Source: an uncultured Bacillota bacterium (GTDB lineage Bacteria; Bacillota_I; Bacilli_A; RFN20; CAG-826). From it: a DNA stretch of 64,000 bases. The notes beneath the pieces are model-generated. The model did no database searches. It was not told where the DNA came from and worked only from the letters and a program-made list of their open reading frames with translations. The position numbers and the translations under genes were made by a program. The stretch is from assembly GCA_949293555.1 (NCBI GenBank), contig CASFDV010000001.1, positions 138,590 to 202,589 of the forward strand. Reading direction: 5' to 3'. This document shows, one piece after another, positions 9,620 to 48,946 of the stretch. How positions within the stretch are numbered: position 1 is the first letter of the stretch; each line of letters opens with the position of its first letter.

Positions 9620-10537
9620 TTACGCTTTCGGAAGGCCGGTCGCGGGGTCGATCTCGCTGGGCTCCTCGCCCTCGGTCTCGACAGGCTCCGCGGCAGGCTT
9701 CCCCGCGGCCTCCCGCTGGCGCCTCGCCTCCTCGACGTACTCCTTCCAGACGGGCTGGAAGGCCGCCCCGAAGGCGTCCTGGCTCTCGCGAAGCAGGGCG
9801 TTCAGGGAGTCGGTGAGCTGCTGCATGACGGTCCGCCAGTTGGACCCGGCGGGCATGTCGCGCTTCCCGGTCATGTAGTCCAGGACGCGGAAGACGTGGT
9901 CCTCGACGTCCTTGTAGCGGACGTCGGTCACGCGCCCCATGTCGCGGATGGTGCGGAGAGAGCGGGCGACGTGCCCGATGTCGGCGCTGATGAAGTTGGC
10001 GGAAGGGTTCGGCTGCCCCTTGGCCTCGTTCATGGCGGCGTTGTAGTCGTTGAAGAGGGCCATGAGGCGATCGGAAAGGGTGAGGAGGGCGACGGAACGG
10101 TAGAAGCGTTCCTCGGCCTTGTCGAGGGCGACGCCTTCGGAGACGTCGATGTTCTTCGCGCGGCAGTCGCGGATGAGGCTCTGGACCATCATCTCGACGT
10201 TCTCGTGGACGGGGATGACGGCCTCGAAGATGGCGATCGCCTGGGCGACATCGACGCGAAGCCCGTCATCGGCGGCGCGCACGATCGTGGAATCCTCCCC
10301 ATAGATCTCGTCGATGAGCTTCTGGATCATCTCCTTCAGCTTCTCCCCGGCCTCGCCGGAGTTCTCGATGGTGTTGTGGAGGACGGTCCTGGCGTTGAAC
10401 TCGTTGAGGATGATCTTCTTCTTGTTCTCGTAGGCCTGGACGCTATGGGAGTCGCGCTTCAGCGCGTACTCGAGCGTGTCGCGGACGGCGCTCTTGAAGT
10501 TGACGAGGTTGACGATTGCTGCGGTCTGAGGATTCAT
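9620..10537 (-). CDS. Alpha-helical protein of unknown function
   Basis: A 305-residue soluble-looking protein, rich in predicted helices and with few glycine turns, ending in an acidic Pro/Glu-rich tail. No signal peptide or membrane segment is seen. Its ATG overlaps the stop of the upstream HAD gene (ATGA), so translation is probably coupled. I do not recognise the family and assign no function. The neighbouring membrane protein could be its partner, but that rests only on position. Confidence 0.65.
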   Translation of the reverse strand: MNPQTAAIVNLVNFKSAVRDTLEYALKRDSHSVQAYENKKKIILNEFNARTVLHNTIENSGEAGEKLKEMIQKLIDEIYGEDSTIVRAADDGLRVDVAQAIAIFEAVIPVHENVEMMVQSLIRDCRAKNIDVSEGVALDKAEERFYRSVALLTLSDRLMALFNDYNAAMNEAKGQPNPSANFISADIGHVARSLRTIRDMGRVTDVRYKDVEDHVFRVLDYMTGKRDMPAGSNWRTVMQQLTDSLNALLRESQDAFGAAFQPVWKEYVEEARRQREAAGKPAAEPVETEGEEPSEIDPATGLPKA

Positions 10538-11430
10538 TCGGGATTCCCTTCTTTTTCTCCGGCTTGGTGGCCTGGGCCTTGCTCCGCCGGCGGGTAGACA
10601 TAGGCCTCGAGGTCAGATACGCGCGCGATGATGTGCCGGGCGTGCTTCTTCACAGGCTCGCGCGCGTGCGCCATGCAGAAGCTTTGTTCTTTATACGCTT
10701 CGAACATCGAGATGTCATTCCCGGAATCGCCCACGACGATAAGGCATTCGGGCGGAAGGCCGATGTGATCGAGGTAGAGGGCGATGCCCTCGCGCTTGCT
10801 CGCGCCCTTGGCGGTGATCTCGATCGCCTGGTCGCTCCAGCTGAACTCAAAGTCAGGATAGCGCTCCCGGAGGATCTTGTTCACCTCCTTGGCGACCTCG
10901 GCGGCCTTTCCGAAGGCGCCGAAGATGAACATCGCCTTGTAGACGTCCCCGGTGTCGATCTCCTCGTCAAATACCTCGTCGCTCCAGACGACGGGCTCGC
11001 GATAGGTGCCGTTCGTGTACGTATAGACGTTGTAGATGGCGCGGTTGAAGGCGCTCACGGAGCTGCGCGGGATGACCATGTTCCGGTGCTTGCAGAAAAG
11101 CATCGGGATCTTCACCGGGAACTCCTTCCGGACCTCCTCGTACATCCTCCGGAAGGCCGCGGGAGGGAGGGTGAGGTCCTGGAGGAGGCGGCCCCCCGCT
11201 ACGACGAAGGCGCCGTTGCAGCCGACGCAGTCGAGCTCTTTCCCGAGCTTCCTCCCGAGCTTCTCCGCGTATAGCCTCGTCCGCCCGGTGACAAGGAGGA
11301 AATGCCCGCCGTCCCCCAGGAAGCGTTCGACGAAGCGCTCGTTCTCGCGCGGAATCATGGCGAGACGTTTCTTCGGGTAGAAGAGCGTCCCGTCCAAATC
11401 GCAGGCAATGACGCGTCGGCTCTGGTCCAT
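10534..11430 (-). CDS. HAD-superfamily phosphatase (Cof-like)
   Basis: A 298-residue HAD hydrolase. Motif I CDLDGTLFYPKK is at the N-terminus, motif II LLVTGRTRLY follows, a large alpha/beta cap fills the middle, and motif IV VVGDSGNDISMF is near residue 225. This pattern is the Cof/sucrose-phosphate-phosphatase class; the substrate is unknown. The ATG stands 6 nt behind TAGAAT, itself inside the last codons of the upstream zeta-like gene, so it may have a leaderless transcript as well as read-through. The C-terminus is Pro/Gly-rich and probably disordered. Confidence 0.8.
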   Translation of the reverse strand: MDQSRRVIACDLDGTLFYPKKRLAMIPRENERFVERFLGDGGHFLLVTGRTRLYAEKLGRKLGKELDCVGCNGAFVVAGGRLLQDLTLPPAAFRRMYEEVRKEFPVKIPMLFCKHRNMVIPRSSVSAFNRAIYNVYTYTNGTYREPVVWSDEVFDEEIDTGDVYKAMFIFGAFGKAAEVAKEVNKILRERYPDFEFSWSDQAIEITAKGASKREGIALYLDHIGLPPECLIVVGDSGNDISMFEAYKEQSFCMAHAREPVKKHARHIIARVSDLEAYVYPPAEQGPGHQAGEKEGNPE

Positions 11431-11434
11431 CGCC

Positions 11435-11968
11435 TCATTCTACCAAATCAAGAGAAAAGGGAAGGGGGCCTAGCCCTTCCGCCTCCCTCTTGAGCGAGAC
11501 GATCGCTTCCAGCATGTCCTCTTCCTTTGTCTCCCCTGGCTCGAGGACCGCGCGGATGCGGGTCGTCTTGAAGTTGGTGACGAGGAAGACCAGGGAAAGG
11601 CAAGGGAGGGCGAGGGCGAGGCCCTTGTACGTATGGCGGTAGCTTTCCTCGATGGCATCTGGATCGAATGGCTTTTTCTCCACGACGGAACGGCCATGCC
11701 CCCGAAGGAGTGCGAGCGAGGATCCCGCGAAGAGGTAATACATCGTGATCCGATAGCCAAGGCCTTTGGCCTTCCGGAGAAGCTCCCTCGTCCTATCGTC
11801 CCTCTCATCCAGTTCGATGATCGAAGAAAAGGAGGAACGCGAGGCTATCCCTTCCCCAAGCTTCCGGAAAGGGAGGTCCAGCAGGAAGGACCGCCGATAG
11901 GCACGGGCGAAGCTCTTGCGTCCAGAGCACTCCCCTCCGGCGACGAGGATGATGCGGGGCGCGCTCAT
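11435..11968 (-). CDS. Zeta-toxin-like P-loop protein (candidate toxin)
   Basis: A 177-residue protein resembling the zeta/COG4185 kinase family: an N-terminal IILVAGG strand, then ECSGRKSFAR where AGxxGxGKSTFAR is usual, LLRKAKGLGYRITMYYL, and ESYRHTYKGL aligning with the RRYxRS region. The Walker A lysine is shifted or replaced (GRKS), so nucleotide binding may be altered or lost. The ATG overlaps the stop of the small upstream gene (ATGA), the classical antitoxin-toxin arrangement. Other readings are an orphan kinase or a decayed toxin. Family is moderately sure; toxicity is inference. Confidence 0.6.
   Translation of the reverse strand: MSAPRIILVAGGECSGRKSFARAYRRSFLLDLPFRKLGEGIASRSSFSSIIELDERDDRTRELLRKAKGLGYRITMYYLFAGSSLALLRGHGRSVVEKKPFDPDAIEESYRHTYKGLALALPCLSLVFLVTNFKTTRIRAVLEPGETKEEDMLEAIVSLKREAEGLGPLPFSLDLVE
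11437..11442 (-). promoter_or_regulatory. -10 box of HAD gene, leaderless geometry
   Basis: TAGAAT on the minus strand stands 6 nt before the ATG at 11430 and overlaps the stop codon of the zeta-like gene. Confidence 0.4.
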
Positions 11969-12249
11969 ATGCCCTTCCTTTCCACTTTCTCGCGATGGCC
12001 GTTCCGGTACTCGCGGACGATGGAGTTCCCCTCGGCGAAGGCTACGGACGTCCCGGCATCGAAGCATTCCCTCCTTGCCCTCTGGAACATCTCGTCCCGT
12101 TCCTCCCCGGCCATCCCTAGCAAATGGCTGCGAAACTTGGGGGAATCCTCCCCGCCAAGGTATTCCGTCCTTAGCCTTCCTCCCTCCCTCCAGACGAGGT
12201 AATAGTAGTCGTGGCCGTTGATGACCTTCCGCGACAATGTCTTCCCCAT
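11965..12249 (-). CDS. Small protein, candidate antitoxin of the zeta-like gene
   Basis: A 94-residue protein. The N-terminal half reads like DYYYLVWREGGRLRTEYLG and the C-terminal part contains GNSIVREYRNGHREKVE, a pattern reminiscent of antitoxins next to COG4185-type toxins. It precedes the zeta-like gene with an ATGA overlap. Its promoter is leaderless (TATAAT, 6 nt, ATG) and overlaps a 9-9-9 palindrome, as expected for autoregulation. I do not recognise a DNA-binding motif with confidence. Antitoxin status is inferred from size, order, overlap and operator. Confidence 0.55.
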   Translation of the reverse strand: MGKTLSRKVINGHDYYYLVWREGGRLRTEYLGGEDSPKFRSHLLGMAGEERDEMFQRARRECFDAGTSVAFAEGNSIVREYRNGHREKVERKGI

Positions 12250-12255
12250 AGAGGC

Positions 12256-12285
12256 ATTATAACAACATTTCTCGTTTGTTGTTAT
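12256..12285 (-). promoter_or_regulatory. Promoter and palindromic operator of the candidate toxin-antitoxin pair
   Basis: The arms ATAACAACA (12259-12267) and TGTTGTTAT (12277-12285) are perfect inverted repeats separated by 9 bp. The left arm overlaps the minus-strand TATAAT (12261-12256), which is 6 nt before the start at 12249. Bound protein would block initiation. Confidence 0.6.
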
Positions 12286-12336: not shown

Positions 12337-12891
12337 CTAGGCAAGCCTGTTCTGAACCTGGATGACGCCGTAGCCGCCGTCGAGCCGCTTGTAGGCGATC
12401 GAGATCTGCTCGTCGTCGGAGTCGAGGTAGACGAAGAAGGTATGGCCGAGCGCGTCCATGCGGGTGATGGCGTCGTCGAGCGTCATCGGCTCGAGGTAGA
12501 TGCTCTTGGTGCGGACGACTTCCTCCGCATCCTCGCTTTCCGCCTCTTCCTCGATGCTCTGGAGGGCGAGGAGCTTGCCGAGGCCGATCGCCCCGTTATG
12601 CCCCCTCTCCATCCTGGTCTTGAGACGTCTCATCTGGTCCTCGAGCTTGTCGACGGCGAGGTCGACGGCGGCGTAGAGGTCGTTGTTCCTCACTTCCGTC
12701 CGGAAGTCCATCTCCTTGGTGAAGATGGTGATCTCGACCTTCGCACCGACCTTGTAGGACTGGACGACCGCGCGGCAAAGGACGTCGTCCTTGATCACGA
12801 AGTATTTTTCCATCCTGCCCAGCTTGTCCTGGATGTAGGCCGAAATGGAATCGGTCACCTCGATGTTCTTGCCGATGATCGTGTACTTCAT
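12337..12891 (-). CDS. hpf: Long-form ribosome hibernation promoting factor
   Basis: Dimerises 70S ribosomes into inactive 100S particles during starvation. The N-terminal HPF/RaiA domain (about residues 1-100, starting MKYTIIGKNIEVTD) binds the decoding centre. The C-terminal S30AE domain (about residues 125-184, with PMTLDDAITRMDALGH) mediates dimerisation. The 184 residues are typical of the long form in Bacillota. The start has GGGGAG upstream and a leader of about 40 nt. A near-perfect cre palindrome at 12968-12981 lies just upstream of the promoter, suggesting carbon-catabolite control. Confidence 0.93.
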   Translation of the reverse strand: MKYTIIGKNIEVTDSISAYIQDKLGRMEKYFVIKDDVLCRAVVQSYKVGAKVEITIFTKEMDFRTEVRNNDLYAAVDLAVDKLEDQMRRLKTRMERGHNGAIGLGKLLALQSIEEEAESEDAEEVVRTKSIYLEPMTLDDAITRMDALGHTFFVYLDSDDEQISIAYKRLDGGYGVIQVQNRLA

Positions 12892-17110: not shown

Positions 17111-17140
17111 GAGGCTCCGGAGCAATCCGGAGCCTTTTTC
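17111..17140 (+). terminator. Terminator after tRNA-Leu(GAG)
   Basis: Stem GGCTCCGG/CCGGAGCC followed by TTTTT. It reaches the stop codon of the convergent regulator gene. Confidence 0.85.
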
Positions 17141-17534
17141 AACGCTTGTCCAGGAAGCGCTCCATGTGGGTCTTGATCGCCTGGAAGCTTTCCTCGGAAA
17201 GGTCGTGCTCGATGAGGCAGGCGTCCCTTCTCGCGTTCTCCTCGTCCACTCCTAAGGAAAGAAGGGCCTTCTCGAGGACCTGGTGGCGCTCGTAGACGCG
17301 CCCGGCGATTGCCATCCCCTGCTCCGTCAGGTAGATGAGCCCGTGCTCGTCGAGACGGATGAGGCCCTTGTCCTCCATCTTCCTGACCGCGACGGAGACG
17401 CTGGCCTTTGAATAGGAGAAGCTCCGGGCGAGATCGACGGAGCGGACGCCTTCCTTCCCCTGCCCTAGCATGAGGATCCTCTCGACGTAGTCTTCCTGCG
17501 ACTCGTGGAAGCTCGTGATTCCTCTTTCGTTCAT
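17139..17534 (-). CDS. DtxR/MntR-family metal-dependent repressor
   Basis: A metal-sensing repressor of 131 residues: an N-terminal winged helix (about 10-70, with SKASVSVAVRKMEDKG as recognition region) and a dimerisation/metal domain; no SH3 domain, as in MntR. Metal ligands by alignment: Asp15 and Glu18 (EDYVE, MntR-like), His84, Glu109 and His110, but Cys106 where MntR has Glu and DtxR has Cys. It therefore mixes manganese-type and iron-type ligands. It faces the feo operon across 117 bp with two palindromes, so iron uptake is the likely target. MntR versus IdeR identity is open. Confidence 0.85.
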   Translation of the reverse strand: MNERGITSFHESQEDYVERILMLGQGKEGVRSVDLARSFSYSKASVSVAVRKMEDKGLIRLDEHGLIYLTEQGMAIAGRVYERHQVLEKALLSLGVDEENARRDACLIEHDLSEESFQAIKTHMERFLDKR

Positions 17535-17564
17535 ACCTTGATTTTAATGGTCTTCCCAACTTCT

Positions 17565-17582
17565 AGTTAGTTCCAACTAACT
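17565..17582. promoter_or_regulatory. DtxR-type operator 1
   Basis: AGTTAGTT-CC-AACTAACT is a perfect 8-2-8 palindrome ending 6 bp before the feo -35 box, and lies 31 bp upstream of the regulator start on the other strand. It resembles the TTAGGTTAG/CTAACCTAA boxes of DtxR-family proteins. Confidence 0.65.
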
Positions 17583-17588
17583 TTTGTG

Positions 17589-17617
17589 TTGACGGGACTT
17601 AGGAGGAGCACTATATT
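17589..17617 (+). promoter_or_regulatory. Promoter of the feo operon
   Basis: TTGACG (17589-17594) and TATATT (17612-17617) with 17-bp spacing. Predicted initiation near 17624 is next to operator 2. Confidence 0.75.
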
Positions 17618-17624
17618 CCGCATG

Positions 17625-17640
17625 GTTAGTCATAACTAAC
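17625..17640. promoter_or_regulatory. DtxR-type operator 2
   Basis: GTTAGT-CATA-ACTAAC is a palindrome with the same half-site as operator 1. It covers the predicted transcription start of feoA, a position suited to repression. Confidence 0.6.
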
Positions 17641-17651
17641 TTGGAGGAAAC

Positions 17652-17870
17652 ATGCCAATCCTAGTAGCGCCGGAACAAACGCCGCTCAAAGTCGCGCGGC
17701 TCTCGATGGACGAGAAAAGCAAGAAGCGGCTCGCCTCTCTCGGCCTCGTGGTCGATAGCGAGCTTTCAGTCATTTCAAGCGGGAAGGAAGGGATCGTCCT
17801 TCTTCTCAAAGGGACGAGGCTCGCGCTCGACCGGGACATCGCCTCCCGCATCTTCGTAAGGGTCCTATAA
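17652..17870 (+). CDS. feoA: FeoA-domain protein 1
   Basis: A 72-residue SH3-like FeoA protein, a small cytoplasmic partner of the ferrous iron transporter FeoB. The core pattern RLASLGLVVDSELSVIS, followed by a short GIVLLLKGTRLALDRDIA strand-turn-strand, is typical. It is the first gene after the promoter and two operators, with TTGGAGG at good spacing. It is 12 nt upstream of a second feoA. Two FeoA proteins with one FeoB is a known arrangement in Bacillota. Confidence 0.85.
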   Translation: MPILVAPEQTPLKVARLSMDEKSKKRLASLGLVVDSELSVISSGKEGIVLLLKGTRLALDRDIASRIFVRVL

Positions 17871-17882
17871 GGAGGAAGGAAC

Positions 17883-18137
17883 ATGGACCAGCAAAGACTC
17901 AGTTCGCTACGCCCCGGGGAATCCTGCCGAGTCCTTCTCGTGGAAGGGAAGGACAGACAGATCCGCCGAAGGCTCTTCGACATGGGGGTAACCCCCGGAG
18001 CCGAAATCTACGTCCGGAAGACGGCACCCCTCGGGGACCCCGTCGAAATCACAATCCGAAACTACGAGCTCACCTTAAGAAAGAACGAGGCGGAGGCCGT
18101 CCTCGTGGAGGTAACGTCCCATGGAAGCGAAAAATAG
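17883..18137 (+). CDS. feoA: FeoA-domain protein 2
   Basis: An 84-residue second FeoA. The pattern LRPGESCRVLLVEG, RRRLFDMGVTPGAEIYV, then PLGDPVEITIRNYELTLRK is closer to canonical FeoA than the first copy. It has AAGGAGG upstream. The reading frame overlaps the start of feoB by 17 bp, implying coupled translation and a stoichiometric complex at the membrane. Confidence 0.88.
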   Translation: MDQQRLSSLRPGESCRVLLVEGKDRQIRRRLFDMGVTPGAEIYVRKTAPLGDPVEITIRNYELTLRKNEAEAVLVEVTSHGSEK

Positions 18138-20421
18138 GAAGATAGCCCTCGCAGGCAACCCCAACTCCGGGAAGACGACCCTTTTCAACAACCTGACAGG
18201 CTCCACCGCGCATGTCGGCAACTGGCCTGGGGTCACCGTCGAGAAGCGTTCGGGAACCTACAAGAACAGGAAGACCGGCGAGAGGATCGAGATAATCGAC
18301 CTCCCGGGCATCTACTCCCTGAGTCCCTACACCTCGGAAGAGGTCATCTCCAGGAACTACATCCTCGAGGAGGCTCCCGACTGCCTCATCAACGTCGTCG
18401 ATGCGACGAACCTCGAAAGAAACCTTTACCTGACCACCCAGCTTCTCGAGATGAACGTCCCCGTCGTCATCGCCCTCAACATGAGCGACCTCGTCCGAAA
18501 GCAAGGGGACGCGATCGATGCGAAGGCCCTCCAGGAAAAGATTGGAATCCCTGTCGTAGAGATCAGCGCCCTCCGCGGGGAAAACCTCGCCCACCTCATG
18601 GAAGTCGTGGCCTCCGAATGCAAAAAACCTCGCAAAGGCACCTCCGTTCTTAAGGAATCGAAGATCGACAAGCTGATTGCGAGCCTTGAGATCACCCTCC
18701 GCGAGAAAGGGGTCGAGCACTCCCTCTTCCATGCGATCAAGCTCGTCGAAGGGGATGAGATCGAATGCGAGATGCATAAGGACCTACTCCCCATGGTCGA
18801 GGAGTTCCGCGAGACCTTCCGCGACCCCACCTTCGGGGATGACTTCGAAGCCTATGTCGCGGATTGCCGCTACAAGGCTATCGCAAGGGACTTCAGCCCT
18901 GCCTACCGGAGAAAGGAGGGCAGTAAGGAGGGCGCCAAGAAGCTCTCCCTGAGCGACCGCATCGACAAGGTGCTCACCAACCGCTGGGCGGGAATCCCTA
19001 TCTTCATCGCCATCCTTTTCGTCCTCTTCCACCTCATCTTCGGGACCGACCTCCTCTACCTCGGCGCGATGGGCGCCTTCGGAGCGGAAGGGCTCGCCGA
19101 CCCCCTGGCCGGCACAATCTGGGAAGGCCTCTTCGTCGACTTCGGCATCAACTCCCCCGGAGTCATCCTCCATAACTTCGTCGACATCATCCTCAACAAC
19201 CTGATACTCGGGAACATCAGCGAGGCGATGTCCGCCGCGCAGGTCGACCCGTGGGCGCAGAGCCTCATATGCGACGGGATCCTCGGAGGCATATTCGCCG
19301 TCCTTGGCTTCCTCCCCGAAATCCTCTGCCTCTTCCTTGCCTTCTCCATCCTCGAGGACACCGGCTACATGGCCCGCGTCGCCTTCATCCTCGACCGCAT
19401 CTTCCGGAGGTTCGGCATCACAGGGCGCGCCTTCATGCCCATGATCATGGGCTTCGGCTGCTCCGTGCCGGCGATGATCAACACGAGAACCCTCGCCACC
19501 GAACGCGAGAAAACCGCGACAATCCGAGTCATTCCCTTCTTCTCCTGCGGCGCCAAGCTCCCGATCCTAACTGGATGCGCGGGGGCGATCGCCCAGTCCT
19601 TCGGCTTCCCCTACGTCGACCTCATCACCGTCTCAATGTACATCATTGGGGTGGTCGCAGCGATCCTCATGCTCCTCCTCATGCGCCACACGACCATGAG
19701 AGGGGAGGCCGCCCCCTTCATCATGGAGCTCCCCGCCTACCATCTCCCTCAGTTCAAGTCGCTGATGATCCATCTCTGGGACAAGACGAAGCACTACGTG
19801 AAGAAGGCCTTCACCATCATCTTCGCCTCGACCGTGCTCATCTGGTTCCTCCAGAGTTTCTCCTGGAACTGGACCTACATCGGAGTAGAGGAGACCGGAA
19901 GTTCCATTCTTGCCTCGCTGGGCCAGCTCATCCAGCCCCTATTCACCCCTCTTGGCTTCGGCTCGCAGATCGGGTCCCTCGGATGGGTGTTCGCCGTCGG
20001 GGCCATCACAGGCCTCATCGCCAAGGAGAACGTTCTCGGAACGTTCGCGGTCCTTGCCGCGATGCTCCTTGGGGGCGCCGCCGATGACTACGGCGAGGTC
20101 GAGTCGGTCGTCGCGATGGTGCAGTCCACCGAGATCCTCTGGCCCGGAATCATCGCCTACATCACTTTCAACATGCTGACGATCCCCTGTTTCGCGGCCT
20201 GCGCGACCGCCAAGGCGGAGCTCCCCAAGGGCAAATTCCGCTGGACGATCCTCTTCTGGCTCGCCAGCAGTTACCTTATCTCCTCGATGGTCTACCTCGT
20301 CCTGTCCTGGTGGTGGACTCTCTTCATCTTCCTCTTCCTCATCGCGCTCCTCGTCCTGGGCATCTGGTACATGAACCAGATCAGGGACGGTAAGAGGAGC
20401 CTTCCTTGGAGGCGGGCCTGA
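18121..20421 (+). CDS. feoB: Ferrous iron transporter FeoB
   Basis: The main ferrous iron permease. The N-terminal G-protein domain carries G1 (GNPNSGKTT, residues 12-20), G3 (DLPGIYSL, from 60) and NMSD as G4, followed by a helical GDI-like domain. The membrane part holds two gate regions, including GFGCSVPAM with the conserved Cys and PFFSCGAKLPI. The 766 residues are a normal length. The ATG overlaps feoA by 17 bp, and the stop TGA overlaps the next ATG (TGATG). Repression by the divergent DtxR-type regulator is inferred from the operators. Confidence 0.96.
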   Translation: MEAKNRKIALAGNPNSGKTTLFNNLTGSTAHVGNWPGVTVEKRSGTYKNRKTGERIEIIDLPGIYSLSPYTSEEVISRNYILEEAPDCLINVVDATNLERNLYLTTQLLEMNVPVVIALNMSDLVRKQGDAIDAKALQEKIGIPVVEISALRGENLAHLMEVVASECKKPRKGTSVLKESKIDKLIASLEITLREKGVEHSLFHAIKLVEGDEIECEMHKDLLPMVEEFRETFRDPTFGDDFEAYVADCRYKAIARDFSPAYRRKEGSKEGAKKLSLSDRIDKVLTNRWAGIPIFIAILFVLFHLIFGTDLLYLGAMGAFGAEGLADPLAGTIWEGLFVDFGINSPGVILHNFVDIILNNLILGNISEAMSAAQVDPWAQSLICDGILGGIFAVLGFLPEILCLFLAFSILEDTGYMARVAFILDRIFRRFGITGRAFMPMIMGFGCSVPAMINTRTLATEREKTATIRVIPFFSCGAKLPILTGCAGAIAQSFGFPYVDLITVSMYIIGVVAAILMLLLMRHTTMRGEAAPFIMELPAYHLPQFKSLMIHLWDKTKHYVKKAFTIIFASTVLIWFLQSFSWNWTYIGVEETGSSILASLGQLIQPLFTPLGFGSQIGSLGWVFAVGAITGLIAKENVLGTFAVLAAMLLGGAADDYGEVESVVAMVQSTEILWPGIIAYITFNMLTIPCFAACATAKAELPKGKFRWTILFWLASSYLISSMVYLVLSWWWTLFIFLFLIALLVLGIWYMNQIRDGKRSLPWRRA

Positions 20422-39599: not shown

Positions 39600-43583
<3,984 letters not shown>

Positions 43584-43597
43584 ACGCTCTCCCTTCA

Positions 43598-47349
<3,752 letters not shown>

Positions 47350-47353
<4 letters not shown>

Positions 47354-47961
47354 TGCTGCTCCTTCGTTCTGGTTGCTTCGATCACCCAGTAGCCCTTCTC
47401 GCGGGCGATCCTTTCCGCCTTCCCGAAGAGTCCCTCGAGATGGCGGAGGGCGCTCGGGGCGCCCTGTTCCTTGCGGATCACGACGAGAAGCCTTCCTCCG
47501 GGAAGAAGATGCGCCAGGGCCCCTTGGTAGATGGCCTGGCAGGTCTTCTTCCCCGCGCGGATCGGCGGGTTCGTCAGGATGGTGTCGAAGTGGTCGGAGA
47601 TGGCGGAGAACGCGTCGCTTTCGACGAACGTCGCCTGCGAGGAGACGCCGATCCTCTCGGCGTTCCTCTTCGCGAGGGCGAGGGCCCGCGGGTTCACGTC
47701 GGAGAGCGTGACGCGCCGCGACGGGTCCAGGGCGGCAAGGAGCAGTCCGATCGCTCCCGCGCCGCACCCGACGTCGAGGATGCTCTTCCCCAGGGGCAGG
47801 GGGGCGGCGGTCTCTAGAAGAAGCCGCGTGCCCTTGTCGAGCCCATGCTTGGAGAACACCCCGTTGTCGCCCAGGAAGGGCCATTCCCTCCCGAAGAGAG
47901 TGAAACCCGCGTCGATCTCTCGATGCGGGAGGCTCTCGTCGTTCACGAAGTAATGGCTCAT
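47350..47961 (-). CDS. RsmC-like class I SAM methyltransferase
   Basis: A 203-residue methyltransferase with the SAM motif ILDVGCGAGAIGLLLA and the N6-adenine/guanine-type NPPIRAG motif (NPP), as in 16S rRNA guanine-N2 methyltransferase RsmC; the Bacillus equivalent (YbxB) occupies the same place between rplL and rpoB. The start MSHYFVNDE is typical for the family. A G-rich ribosome site and a 12-bp hairpin lie upstream. The target base is inferred from family. The stop overlaps the rpoB start. Confidence 0.88.
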
Positions 47962-47985
47962 CGGGAGGAACCCCCCTAAGGCGGC

Positions 47986-48024
47986 AAAATCCCTGTCCCG
48001 GGAGGACGGTATCCCGGGGCAGGG
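47986..48024 (-). terminator. Hairpin between rplL and rsmC, probable partial terminator
   Basis: A 12-bp stem (CCCTGCCCCGGG/CCCGGGACAGGG on the minus strand, one wobble pair) is followed by ATTTTG. The short T-run suggests attenuation that lowers polymerase expression relative to L7/L12. Confidence 0.6.
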
Positions 48025-48046
48025 CGGTCGATGAAAGGTTGCGAGA

Positions 48047-48433
48047 CTACTTGATCTCGACTTCGGCGCCCGTGTCGGCGAGCGTCTTCTTGTGGGCCTC
48101 GGCCTCGACCGGAGAGAGCTTCTCCTTGATCGCGACCGGCGCGCCGTCGACGAGCTTCTTGGCATCCATGAGGCCAAGGCCGGTGATGGCCTGGACGGCC
48201 TTGATGACGGCGACCTTGCTGCCGGTGCCGATGCCCTTGAGGATGAGGCTGACCTCGGTCGGCCCCTTCTGGGCGGGGCCCTCCTCCTCGGCCGGGGCCG
48301 CGGCGGCGGCCACGGGGGCGGCGGCGGTGACGCCGAACTTCTCGCAGACGGCGTCCACGAGCGCCTTGAGCTCGAGGGCGGTCATCTGGGAGAGGGTGTC
48401 GAGAATCTGTTCGTTGGTAAGCTTTTCAGCCAT
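48047..48433 (-). CDS. rplL: 50S ribosomal protein L7/L12
   Basis: The stalk protein, 128 residues: an N-terminal dimerisation helix (EQILDTLSQMTALELKALVD), an Ala-rich hinge (about 38-52) and a globular C-terminal domain (EVSLILKGIGTGSKVAVIK ... GLGLMDAKKLVDGAP) that recruits translation factors. It is 18 nt downstream of rplJ. A hairpin follows, before rsmC. Confidence 0.97.
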   Translation of the reverse strand: MAEKLTNEQILDTLSQMTALELKALVDAVCEKFGVTAAAPVAAAAAPAEEEGPAQKGPTEVSLILKGIGTGSKVAVIKAVQAITGLGLMDAKKLVDGAPVAIKEKLSPVEAEAHKKTLADTGAEVEIK

Positions 48434-48451
48434 GGGAATCTTCCTCCTTCA

Positions 48452-48946
48452 TTAGGCGGCCTCGCCCGGCTGGGCGATGGCATCGACGGCGCGGGCGAAG
48501 CCGGCCATCGGTTCGTTGAGAACCATGCAGAACATGGAGAGCAGCGCTTCCTTCGTGGGAAGCTTGGCGACGGCCTTCAGCCCGTCCCCGTCCAGCGGCT
48601 GGCCCTCGACGATCCCGCCCTTGAGGACGAGATGCTCGTGGTAGCGGCTGAACTTATAGAGGACGCTCGCGCCCGCGGGCGCGTCCTTGGCGAAGACGAA
48701 GGCGTTGGGGCCCTCGAGGATGTCCCCGAGGGAGCTGGCCTTCTCCTCCCCGAGAGCGCGGCGCACCATCGTGTTCTTGTACACCTTGATGCGGGCGTCC
48801 TTCTCGGCGAGCTTCTTCCTGAGCTCGGAGAGCTCGGCCACGGTGAGGCCGTGGTAGCTGACGATGGCGAAGCCGGCGTTCTCGTCGAGGCCCTTGCGGA
48901 TTTCCTCGACGGCGACCTTCTTCGCCTCGAGCGCTTCTTGGTTCAT
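48452..48946 (-). CDS. rplJ: 50S ribosomal protein L10
   Basis: Anchors L7/L12 dimers to 23S rRNA. The 164 residues start MNQEALEAKK and contain the YHGLTVAELSELR and KVYKNTMVRRAL motifs. A structured leader upstream (L10 leader) contains the conserved TGCCGAGG element, so autoregulation by the L10-L7/L12 complex is expected. The start has GGAGGAAAGGAG. Confidence 0.97.
   Translation of the reverse strand: MNQEALEAKKVAVEEIRKGLDENAGFAIVSYHGLTVAELSELRKKLAEKDARIKVYKNTMVRRALGEEKASSLGDILEGPNAFVFAKDAPAGASVLYKFSRYHEHLVLKGGIVEGQPLDGDGLKAVAKLPTKEALLSMFCMVLNEPMAGFARAVDAIAQPGEAA

Follow-up and report, generated by a model that had tools for sequence, protein, structure and literature searches.

A pair of overlapping genes lies between the genes for a ribosome hibernation factor (hpf/raiA) and a Cof-type HAD phosphatase in the 64,000-nt stretch of DNA from an uncultured Bacillota bacterium (GTDB RFN20/CAG-826) that was analysed here and is called the window in the following. 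We named the two genes and their products ANT, which is antitoxin-like, and TOX, which has the fold of zeta/PezT toxins. The interpretation towards which we lean with moderate confidence is that they form a toxin-antitoxin module derived from the zeta/COG4185 kind, which was inserted a single time between hpf and the HAD gene and was domesticated in a group of gut Bacilli, with ANT acting as an autorepressor and TOX as its non-catalytic or altered partner. The pair has been retained at a fixed site while the catalytic residues of TOX eroded, which suggests that a former toxin was recruited to another job.

Organization of the ANT-TOX locus

All genes of the locus are encoded on the minus strand in the order hpf, inverted repeat, ANT, TOX and HAD phosphatase (Table 1). 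With the ATG at 11968-11966 as its start codon, TOX spans 11435-11968 and encodes 177 amino acids. The preliminary description of this DNA, made from the sequence alone, had reported a 94-residue gene overlapping a zeta-like gene by ATGA, and the open reading frames bear this out. An overlap is present in all 26 ANT/TOX pairs, with a length of 4 to 23 nt. A terminator-like hairpin (ggcaccggaaggtgcc) with a T-rich tail was read by eye between hpf and ANT, and the HAD gene starts 4 nt beyond the TOX stop codon. The HAD gene has a -10-like hexamer of its own (TAGAAT), which ends 6 nt before its ATG (11431-11450, minus strand); in the window's species, the stop codon TAG of TOX forms the first bases of this hexamer.

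Table 1. Features of the ANT-TOX locus (window positions)
Feature	Position	Strand	Basis
hpf/raiA ribosome hibernation factor, upstream neighbour	12337..12891	minus	Pfam PF02482, 4e-22
Operator-like inverted repeat ATAACAACA-N9-TGTTGTTAT, core AAC-N11-GTT	12259..12285	.	Repeat search, shuffles
-10 box TATAAT with extended TG, ending 6 nt before ANT ATG	12256..12261	minus	Window and relatives
ANT, antitoxin-like, 94 aa	11965..12249	minus	ORF; AlphaFold2 model; 26-member family alignment
ATGA, 4-nt overlap of TOX start and ANT stop	11965..11968	minus	ORFs
TOX, predicted zeta/PezT fold, 177 aa, degenerate catalytic site	11435..11968	minus	AlphaFold2, VIA-align, Zeta_toxin profile, HHalign
Cof-type HAD phosphatase, downstream neighbour	10534..11430	minus	Pfam Hydrolase_3, 1e-35; TIGR00099, 7e-36 (under that model's cut-off)

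This operon layout and the overlap in 26 of 26 pairs also speak for a second explanation, which we consider possible but doubtful: a type II toxin-antitoxin system that still works with changed chemistry. TOX would then be toxic via another substrate or via the arginine in its P-loop, ANT would neutralise it as well as act as repressor, and the pair would be retained because loss of ANT is costly.

TOX is predicted to be a member of the zeta/PezT superfamily

The AlphaFold2 model of TOX (pLDDT 91.7, based on a 27-row alignment) was compared with known structures by VIA-align. It matches zeta 1gvn_D with a Z score of 14.0 (2.8 Å over 158 residues), followed by zeta 3q8x_B (13.7), PezT 2p5t_D (12.9) and gonococcal zeta1 (11.8). 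AvrRxo1 (10.9) and polynucleotide kinase (10.5) score lower, and adenylate kinases are found further down. On the sequence level, we compared the TOX family with seven comparators from among the short plasmid zeta proteins, which we take to be those labelled COG4185 and whose records are annotated "zeta toxin family protein". HHalign gives a probability of 99.4, with homology across residues 1-139. The Zeta_toxin profile (PF06414) matches 23 of 27 TOX family members in a scan with E values up to 1 (best 1.2e-8); for the window TOX it is the sole Pfam match (E 0.069; 13 bits versus a cut-off of 22.3). Neither the window TOX nor ANT passes a Pfam or NCBIfam cut-off alone, the window proteins have no match in NCBIfam and PADLOC and no credible match in PHROGs, and a PDB sequence profile search with TOX returned just P-loop stretches and chance KRas-like matches. 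By predicted fold and by descent, TOX, with a length of 163-180 amino acids across the family, is a member of the zeta/PezT superfamily. The profile and fold matches thus back a toxin-antitoxin-like operon of the zeta/COG4185-like two-gene kind that had been proposed initially.

The polynucleotide and adenylate kinases lower in the list could alternatively hint at a metabolic or nucleic-acid P-loop kinase that is not a toxin, has a metabolite of its own, is accompanied by a small co-regulator and lies nearest to zeta by chance. We regard this as improbable: the Z scores of zeta and PezT proteins exceed those of AvrRxo1 and the kinases by roughly 2 to 3.

Catalytic residues of TOX are eroded

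The Walker A motif of the window TOX reads GGECSGRKS, in which the lysine is replaced by arginine and the following serine or threonine by lysine. This P-loop had already been called degenerate (GRKS), rightly so, yet the loss of catalytic residues throughout the family goes well beyond it. Among the 27 TOX proteins, the Walker A lysine position is occupied by lysine in 12 and by arginine in 15, the next residue is serine or threonine in 15, and a strict GK[ST] is left in six. The position of the FETTLS glutamate (I50 in the window protein) carries a glutamate in just four. Since all four genomes concerned (G002, G005, G018 and G035) also have GK[ST] or the lysine and S/T belonging to it, some members of the family may still be kinases. 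Loss of the glutamate and loss of GK[ST] are associated if kinship is ignored (Fisher p 0.0009); we nevertheless discarded coupled loss as a conclusion, as there are just three independent pairs and the sign test is not significant.

In all 27 TOX proteins, Walker A and F47 are 30 residues apart, versus 58 residues in the two comparators whose motif could be placed by script. The segment with the NAD motif is missing from all 27, and none of the columns between residues 18 and 46 is acidic across all members. The seven comparators, on the other hand, all show GK[ST], NAD or DPD, GGH and YDN/IDN motifs. Five residues of TOX are invariant: the P-loop glycines G11 and G16, R89, which is aligned with the RV arginine of the comparators, N132 and K134. 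These would also suit the non-toxin kinase introduced above, for which the poor conservation of the Walker A lysine and of the next S/T is again unfavourable.

We take D67 of zeta to correspond to the NAD/DPD motif of the comparators, E116 to their FETTLS glutamate and R158 to the position of R89 in TOX; D67, E116 and R171 were mapped onto the TOX family by profile alignment and partly by general zeta motifs, not from a solved structure. Each of the exchanges K46A, D67A, E116A, R158A and R171A abolishes zeta toxicity (PMC6356619). As judged from the alignment and these motifs, the window TOX appears to retain just the R158 equivalent of these five residues. It thus has the arginine at this position, while the Walker A motif GxxxxGK[ST], the catalytic acid and the metal-binding glutamate of an active zeta toxin are not present. 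The pair resembles an autoregulated toxin-antitoxin operon of zeta descent, but because these defining catalytic features are missing, TOX is better not classified among the active zeta toxins. For a working toxin-antitoxin system, the canonical P-loop in 6 of 27 proteins is a favourable sign, to be weighed against the acid-bearing segment that is gone from all 27 and the lysine-to-arginine exchange in 15.

ANT contains a widespread N-terminal module

The AlphaFold2 model of ANT (pLDDT 87.6, pTM 0.49) consists of a three-strand N-terminal sheet (residues 4-32), two helices (37-64) and C-terminal strands (69-90). A distinct N-terminal half of this protein had been pointed out before, and indeed residues 4-44 alone have relatives in unrelated proteins from many phyla. 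The motif KxIxGxxYYYL of this module also occurs in haloarchaeal proteins, short DUF6788-like proteins, AAA proteins and HipA-like kinases. A 432-aa HipA-like kinase with the YYYL-type N-terminal module of ANT is encoded in the same genome (L056 1447-2742, G000:C2 near 446,000), and proteins similar to it are found in several related genera. We considered ANT as a fragment of such a kinase and rejected this idea: HHalign gives 98.3 for residues 3-94 against HipA-like N-termini, but a probability of only 6.7 for residues 46-94 alone, that is, no support past the N-terminal module.

In the fold search with VIA-align, ANT reaches a best Z score of 4.4, with arm-type integrase domains at 3.2-3.3; no match was found at a Foldseek E value below 0.3 or a Z score above 4.4, and the PDB sequence profile search gave none. 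Because these fold matches are weak, we infer DNA binding by the N-terminal module from the operator and the layout of the locus.

A conserved operator-like repeat overlaps the promoter of ANT

The perfect 9-9-9 inverted repeat noticed at the outset was confirmed, with a total length of 27 bp. It is unique in the window at up to three mismatches, none of 100 dinucleotide shuffles contained a match, and just one perfect copy exists in the 1.34-Mb assembly of this organism. As the TATAAT is located at 12261-12256, the repeat extends over the spacer and into the -10 box, of which it includes the first three bases. The initial statement that the -10 box is "covered" therefore holds for these three bases, together with the whole spacer and a poor -35-like ATAACA, but not for the rest of the box. 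A copy with two mismatches is found in the same genome (L222 1501-1527, G000:C4:43854-43880) between genes that, judging from their sequence, are dnaN- and dnaA-like. We rejected the idea of a second operator and hence a regulon, because the altered arm resembles a DnaA box and the similarity is probably a coincidence.

We then analysed the upstream regions of 20 representatives, some of them still close to each other, that remained after exclusion of six near-duplicates from the 26 loci. AAC-N11-GTT with matching flanks is present in 11 of these 20 regions, compared with 0.11 expected and a maximum of two in 300 shuffle sets, and inverted repeats with any other spacing from 3 to 23 are found in at most two. 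Across all 26 upstream regions, the motif is present in 17 and was not found in nine (G002, G011, G012, G016, G018, G021, G034, G035 and G036); the half-site TAACAA occurs in 21. In G005 and the clade of the window, the repeat overlaps the -10 box, but in the rumen clade it is located about 18 nt further upstream; exactly how repression works may therefore vary. An operator-like repeat at the promoter would be equally in place in a working toxin-antitoxin system.

Among 26 relatives, 19 have a -10-like hexamer whose end lies exactly 6 nt ahead of the ANT start codon. A Shine-Dalgarno-like 4-mer precedes TOX in 19 of 26 cases and ANT in one, with none before the window ANT, and the ANT transcript is probably leaderless. 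Of 43 window genes, five show a -10-like hexamer at an offset of 6 nt from the start, as opposed to four matches for the remaining offsets between 3 and 39 taken together. The starts concerned belong to minus-strand genes (3285, 11430, 12249, 17534 and 31651), and leaderless starts seem to be general in the window's genome.

The pair was probably inserted once and inherited vertically

A first search with the window proteins against 61 genomes (its own and 60 relatives) detected TOX in 27 and ANT in 28. In G007 and G045, the ANT matches are short and comprise the N-terminal module alone; in G013, the 27th TOX carrier, ANT is cut by the contig end and only a piece is left. Homologues lying apart from each other had been named as evidence against a module, but ANT adjoins TOX in all 26 genomes in which both are whole. 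Extending the search with a TOX profile to 279 genomes of the order recovered the 27 full-length proteins and, in G033 and G030, a C-terminal end at a contig edge before the HAD gene. All 29 genomes come from the window's genus, which was represented by 37 genomes in the search. Apart from these, the profile matched a canonical zeta protein (G046, L151) and seven short P-loop stretches with low scores. Short zeta-like proteins with DATN-like motifs elsewhere in the class were set aside as a different kinase family, judged by eye. Relatives with a name comprise uncultured Bacilli or Erysipelotrichaceae MAGs, of which several come from rumen or horse faeces.

All 27 loci have the HAD gene downstream of the pair, and 25 have hpf on the upstream side; the other two (L018 and L025) lie at contig starts. 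In all seven pair-less loci in which hpf and the HAD gene are found together, the two genes are directly adjacent, both within the genus (G004, G007, G015, G022 and G027) and outside it (G092 and G099). Of the other three among the eight pair-less genus members, G024 ends past hpf, G029 has no HAD gene at this place, and hpf was not found in G026.

Mapped on a tree built from hpf, the HAD gene, the next gene and metK, presence of the pair requires two changes (8.3 in shuffles), only one of which is forced by supported branches. The tree of the pair shares 15 of 24 splits with the species tree (label shuffles at most two); its ten well supported splits are all found in the species tree, and supported conflicts do not occur. 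In the FastTree phylogeny, the 27 full carriers form one clade. IQ-TREE places the long-branched, pair-less G022 inside the carriers with weak support, so that one gain and one loss are also possible. Taken together, these data are best explained by one ancestral insertion separating hpf from the HAD gene and by vertical inheritance thereafter, with no more than a single clear loss (G022).

Type II toxin-antitoxin systems usually show a patchy, mobile distribution, which is not strictly defining. The pair, in contrast, occupies one site and follows a species-like tree. Near-complete retention at one immobile site would be unusual for an addiction module, and it counts against a working toxin-antitoxin system, as does the search with a relative of the window protein (L018) as query, which found no relative in phage records and distant zeta-type matches alone on plasmids. 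Viral contigs contained no TOX match and, for ANT, one match to the N-terminal module.

Both genes are under purifying selection

For 15 genome pairs, dN/dS was estimated by the Nei-Gojobori method where dS was unsaturated, resulting in values of 0.02-0.26 for TOX (10 estimable pairs) and 0.02-0.14 for ANT (13 estimable pairs). Of the genes examined, all 27 for TOX and all 26 for ANT have open reading frames. The preliminary description had also considered a decayed system, but neither gene is broken in any complete locus, and strong purifying selection acts on both. A decaying relic would account for the degenerate catalytic motifs; it is contradicted by dN/dS values far below 1 in every estimable comparison and disagrees with the open frames and the conserved promoter and operator-like repeat, which makes this explanation very improbable. 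Strong selection on both proteins agrees with a working toxin-antitoxin system as well.

In the comparison with G032, ANT has the highest dS of 47 window genes, and a separate estimate for TOX, which is absent from this comparison because its mechanically called ORF has a start further upstream, is also high (0.83). We discarded the idea of a diversifying replacement as other genes reach 0.85-1.06. ANT and TOX distances show a partial correlation of 0.54 (permutation p 0.0002); because the value for ANT and the neighbour gene g9620 is no weaker (0.58), this correlation is not specific, and we rejected specific coevolution of the two proteins. Two stretches of the window (17139-20421 and 39652-48455) show a dS of about 0.02-0.10 to G032, compared with a window median of 0.39, and are possibly recent recombination tracts.

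A model for the pair as a putatively domesticated module

Returning to the domesticated module that we favour, we propose the following scenario. In an ancestor of the gut Bacilli group, the module would have been inserted a single time at the site flanked by hpf and the HAD gene. ANT would bind AAC-N11-GTT through its N-terminal beta module, either as a dimer or in complex with TOX, and thereby block RNA polymerase at the -35/-10 region of its own leaderless promoter. TOX would bind ANT, and its P-loop, judging from the invariant glycines and R89, probably still places a phosphate or nucleotide. In most species, including that of the window, TOX would no longer phosphorylate UDP-sugars as zeta does and would serve as a co-repressor or nucleotide-responsive partner instead of a poison. 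The invariance of the P-loop glycines and R89, as an ATP-using enzyme would need it, argues against a non-catalytic TOX. Also unfavourable to this model are the four genomes that keep the glutamate, the nine upstream regions in which the repeat was not found, the weak fold matches of ANT and the unspecific correlation of ANT and TOX distances.

A more far-reaching proposal, which we put forward tentatively and consider unlikely, is that a zeta toxin was converted into a non-catalytic P-loop protein that cooperates with a small DNA-binding protein. The two would make up a new type of autoregulated switch, in which the antitoxin reads DNA with a three-strand beta domain resembling the arm type. 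As nearly all members of the group have kept the pair under strong selection, such a switch may control something besides itself or sense a nucleotide. The recruitment of chromosomal toxin-antitoxin modules for host functions is a matter of debate, with few clear natural examples. This pair can be traced over some 30 species with a graded catalytic loss, from GK[ST] plus glutamate to neither, in an operon that is still selected.

Comparison with known systems

Our literature search, which covered only a minority of subscription journals and preprints, found no paper on a fixed, vertically inherited and catalytically eroded zeta derivative with an ANT-like antitoxin. The "new subtype" suggested for the pair at first is a reasonable designation, except that the degenerate P-loop on its own does not capture the catalytic loss across the family.

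With epsilon-zeta and PezAT (PF06414; 1gvn, 3q8x, 2p5t), the pair has in common the zeta fold of TOX and a gene order with the small protein first. It differs from them in the size of TOX (163-180 amino acids), which is devoid of the NAD segment and eroded at the Walker A lysine and the FETTLS glutamate, and in its vertical inheritance at one site. ANT is also no three-helix epsilon: epsilon and PezA, the latter with an added HTH, are helical antitoxins blocking the ATP site, whereas the ANT model combines a beta module, two helices and beta strands. Going by this model, ANT may block TOX in a different way.

The COG4185-type short plasmid zeta proteins are homologous to TOX over residues 1-139 in the profile comparison, and the shorter ones are of like size; unlike TOX, all seven comparators keep the GK[ST], NAD or DPD, GGH and YDN/IDN motifs. 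An Enterococcus plasmid locus (L223 1504-2964) with an epsilon-like antitoxin and a zeta contains one continuous 486-aa frame that joins a COG4185-type domain to a canonical zeta; annotation in the record is limited to the second part, starting at 2101. The DUF6788-type module of HipA-like kinases and AAA proteins resembles ANT in the N-terminal module only.

Rv0366c-Rv0367c of M. tuberculosis likewise combines a zeta-like toxin lacking the UNAG-binding residues with a non-PezA antitoxin (PMC6362051). This precedent for a non-canonical zeta-like toxin is a further argument for a working toxin-antitoxin system. In contrast to ANT-TOX, however, Asp36 is reported to be conserved and expression of the toxin to have effects, and the N-terminus of the antitoxin is assigned to the ribbon-helix-helix type. 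Legionella GndRX belongs to the RES-Xre family, retains an NAD-depleting activity and consists of proteins unrelated to ANT and TOX; it nevertheless resembles our pair as a vertically inherited, toxin-antitoxin-like pair without detectable toxicity, which its authors call domesticated (PMC12457610).
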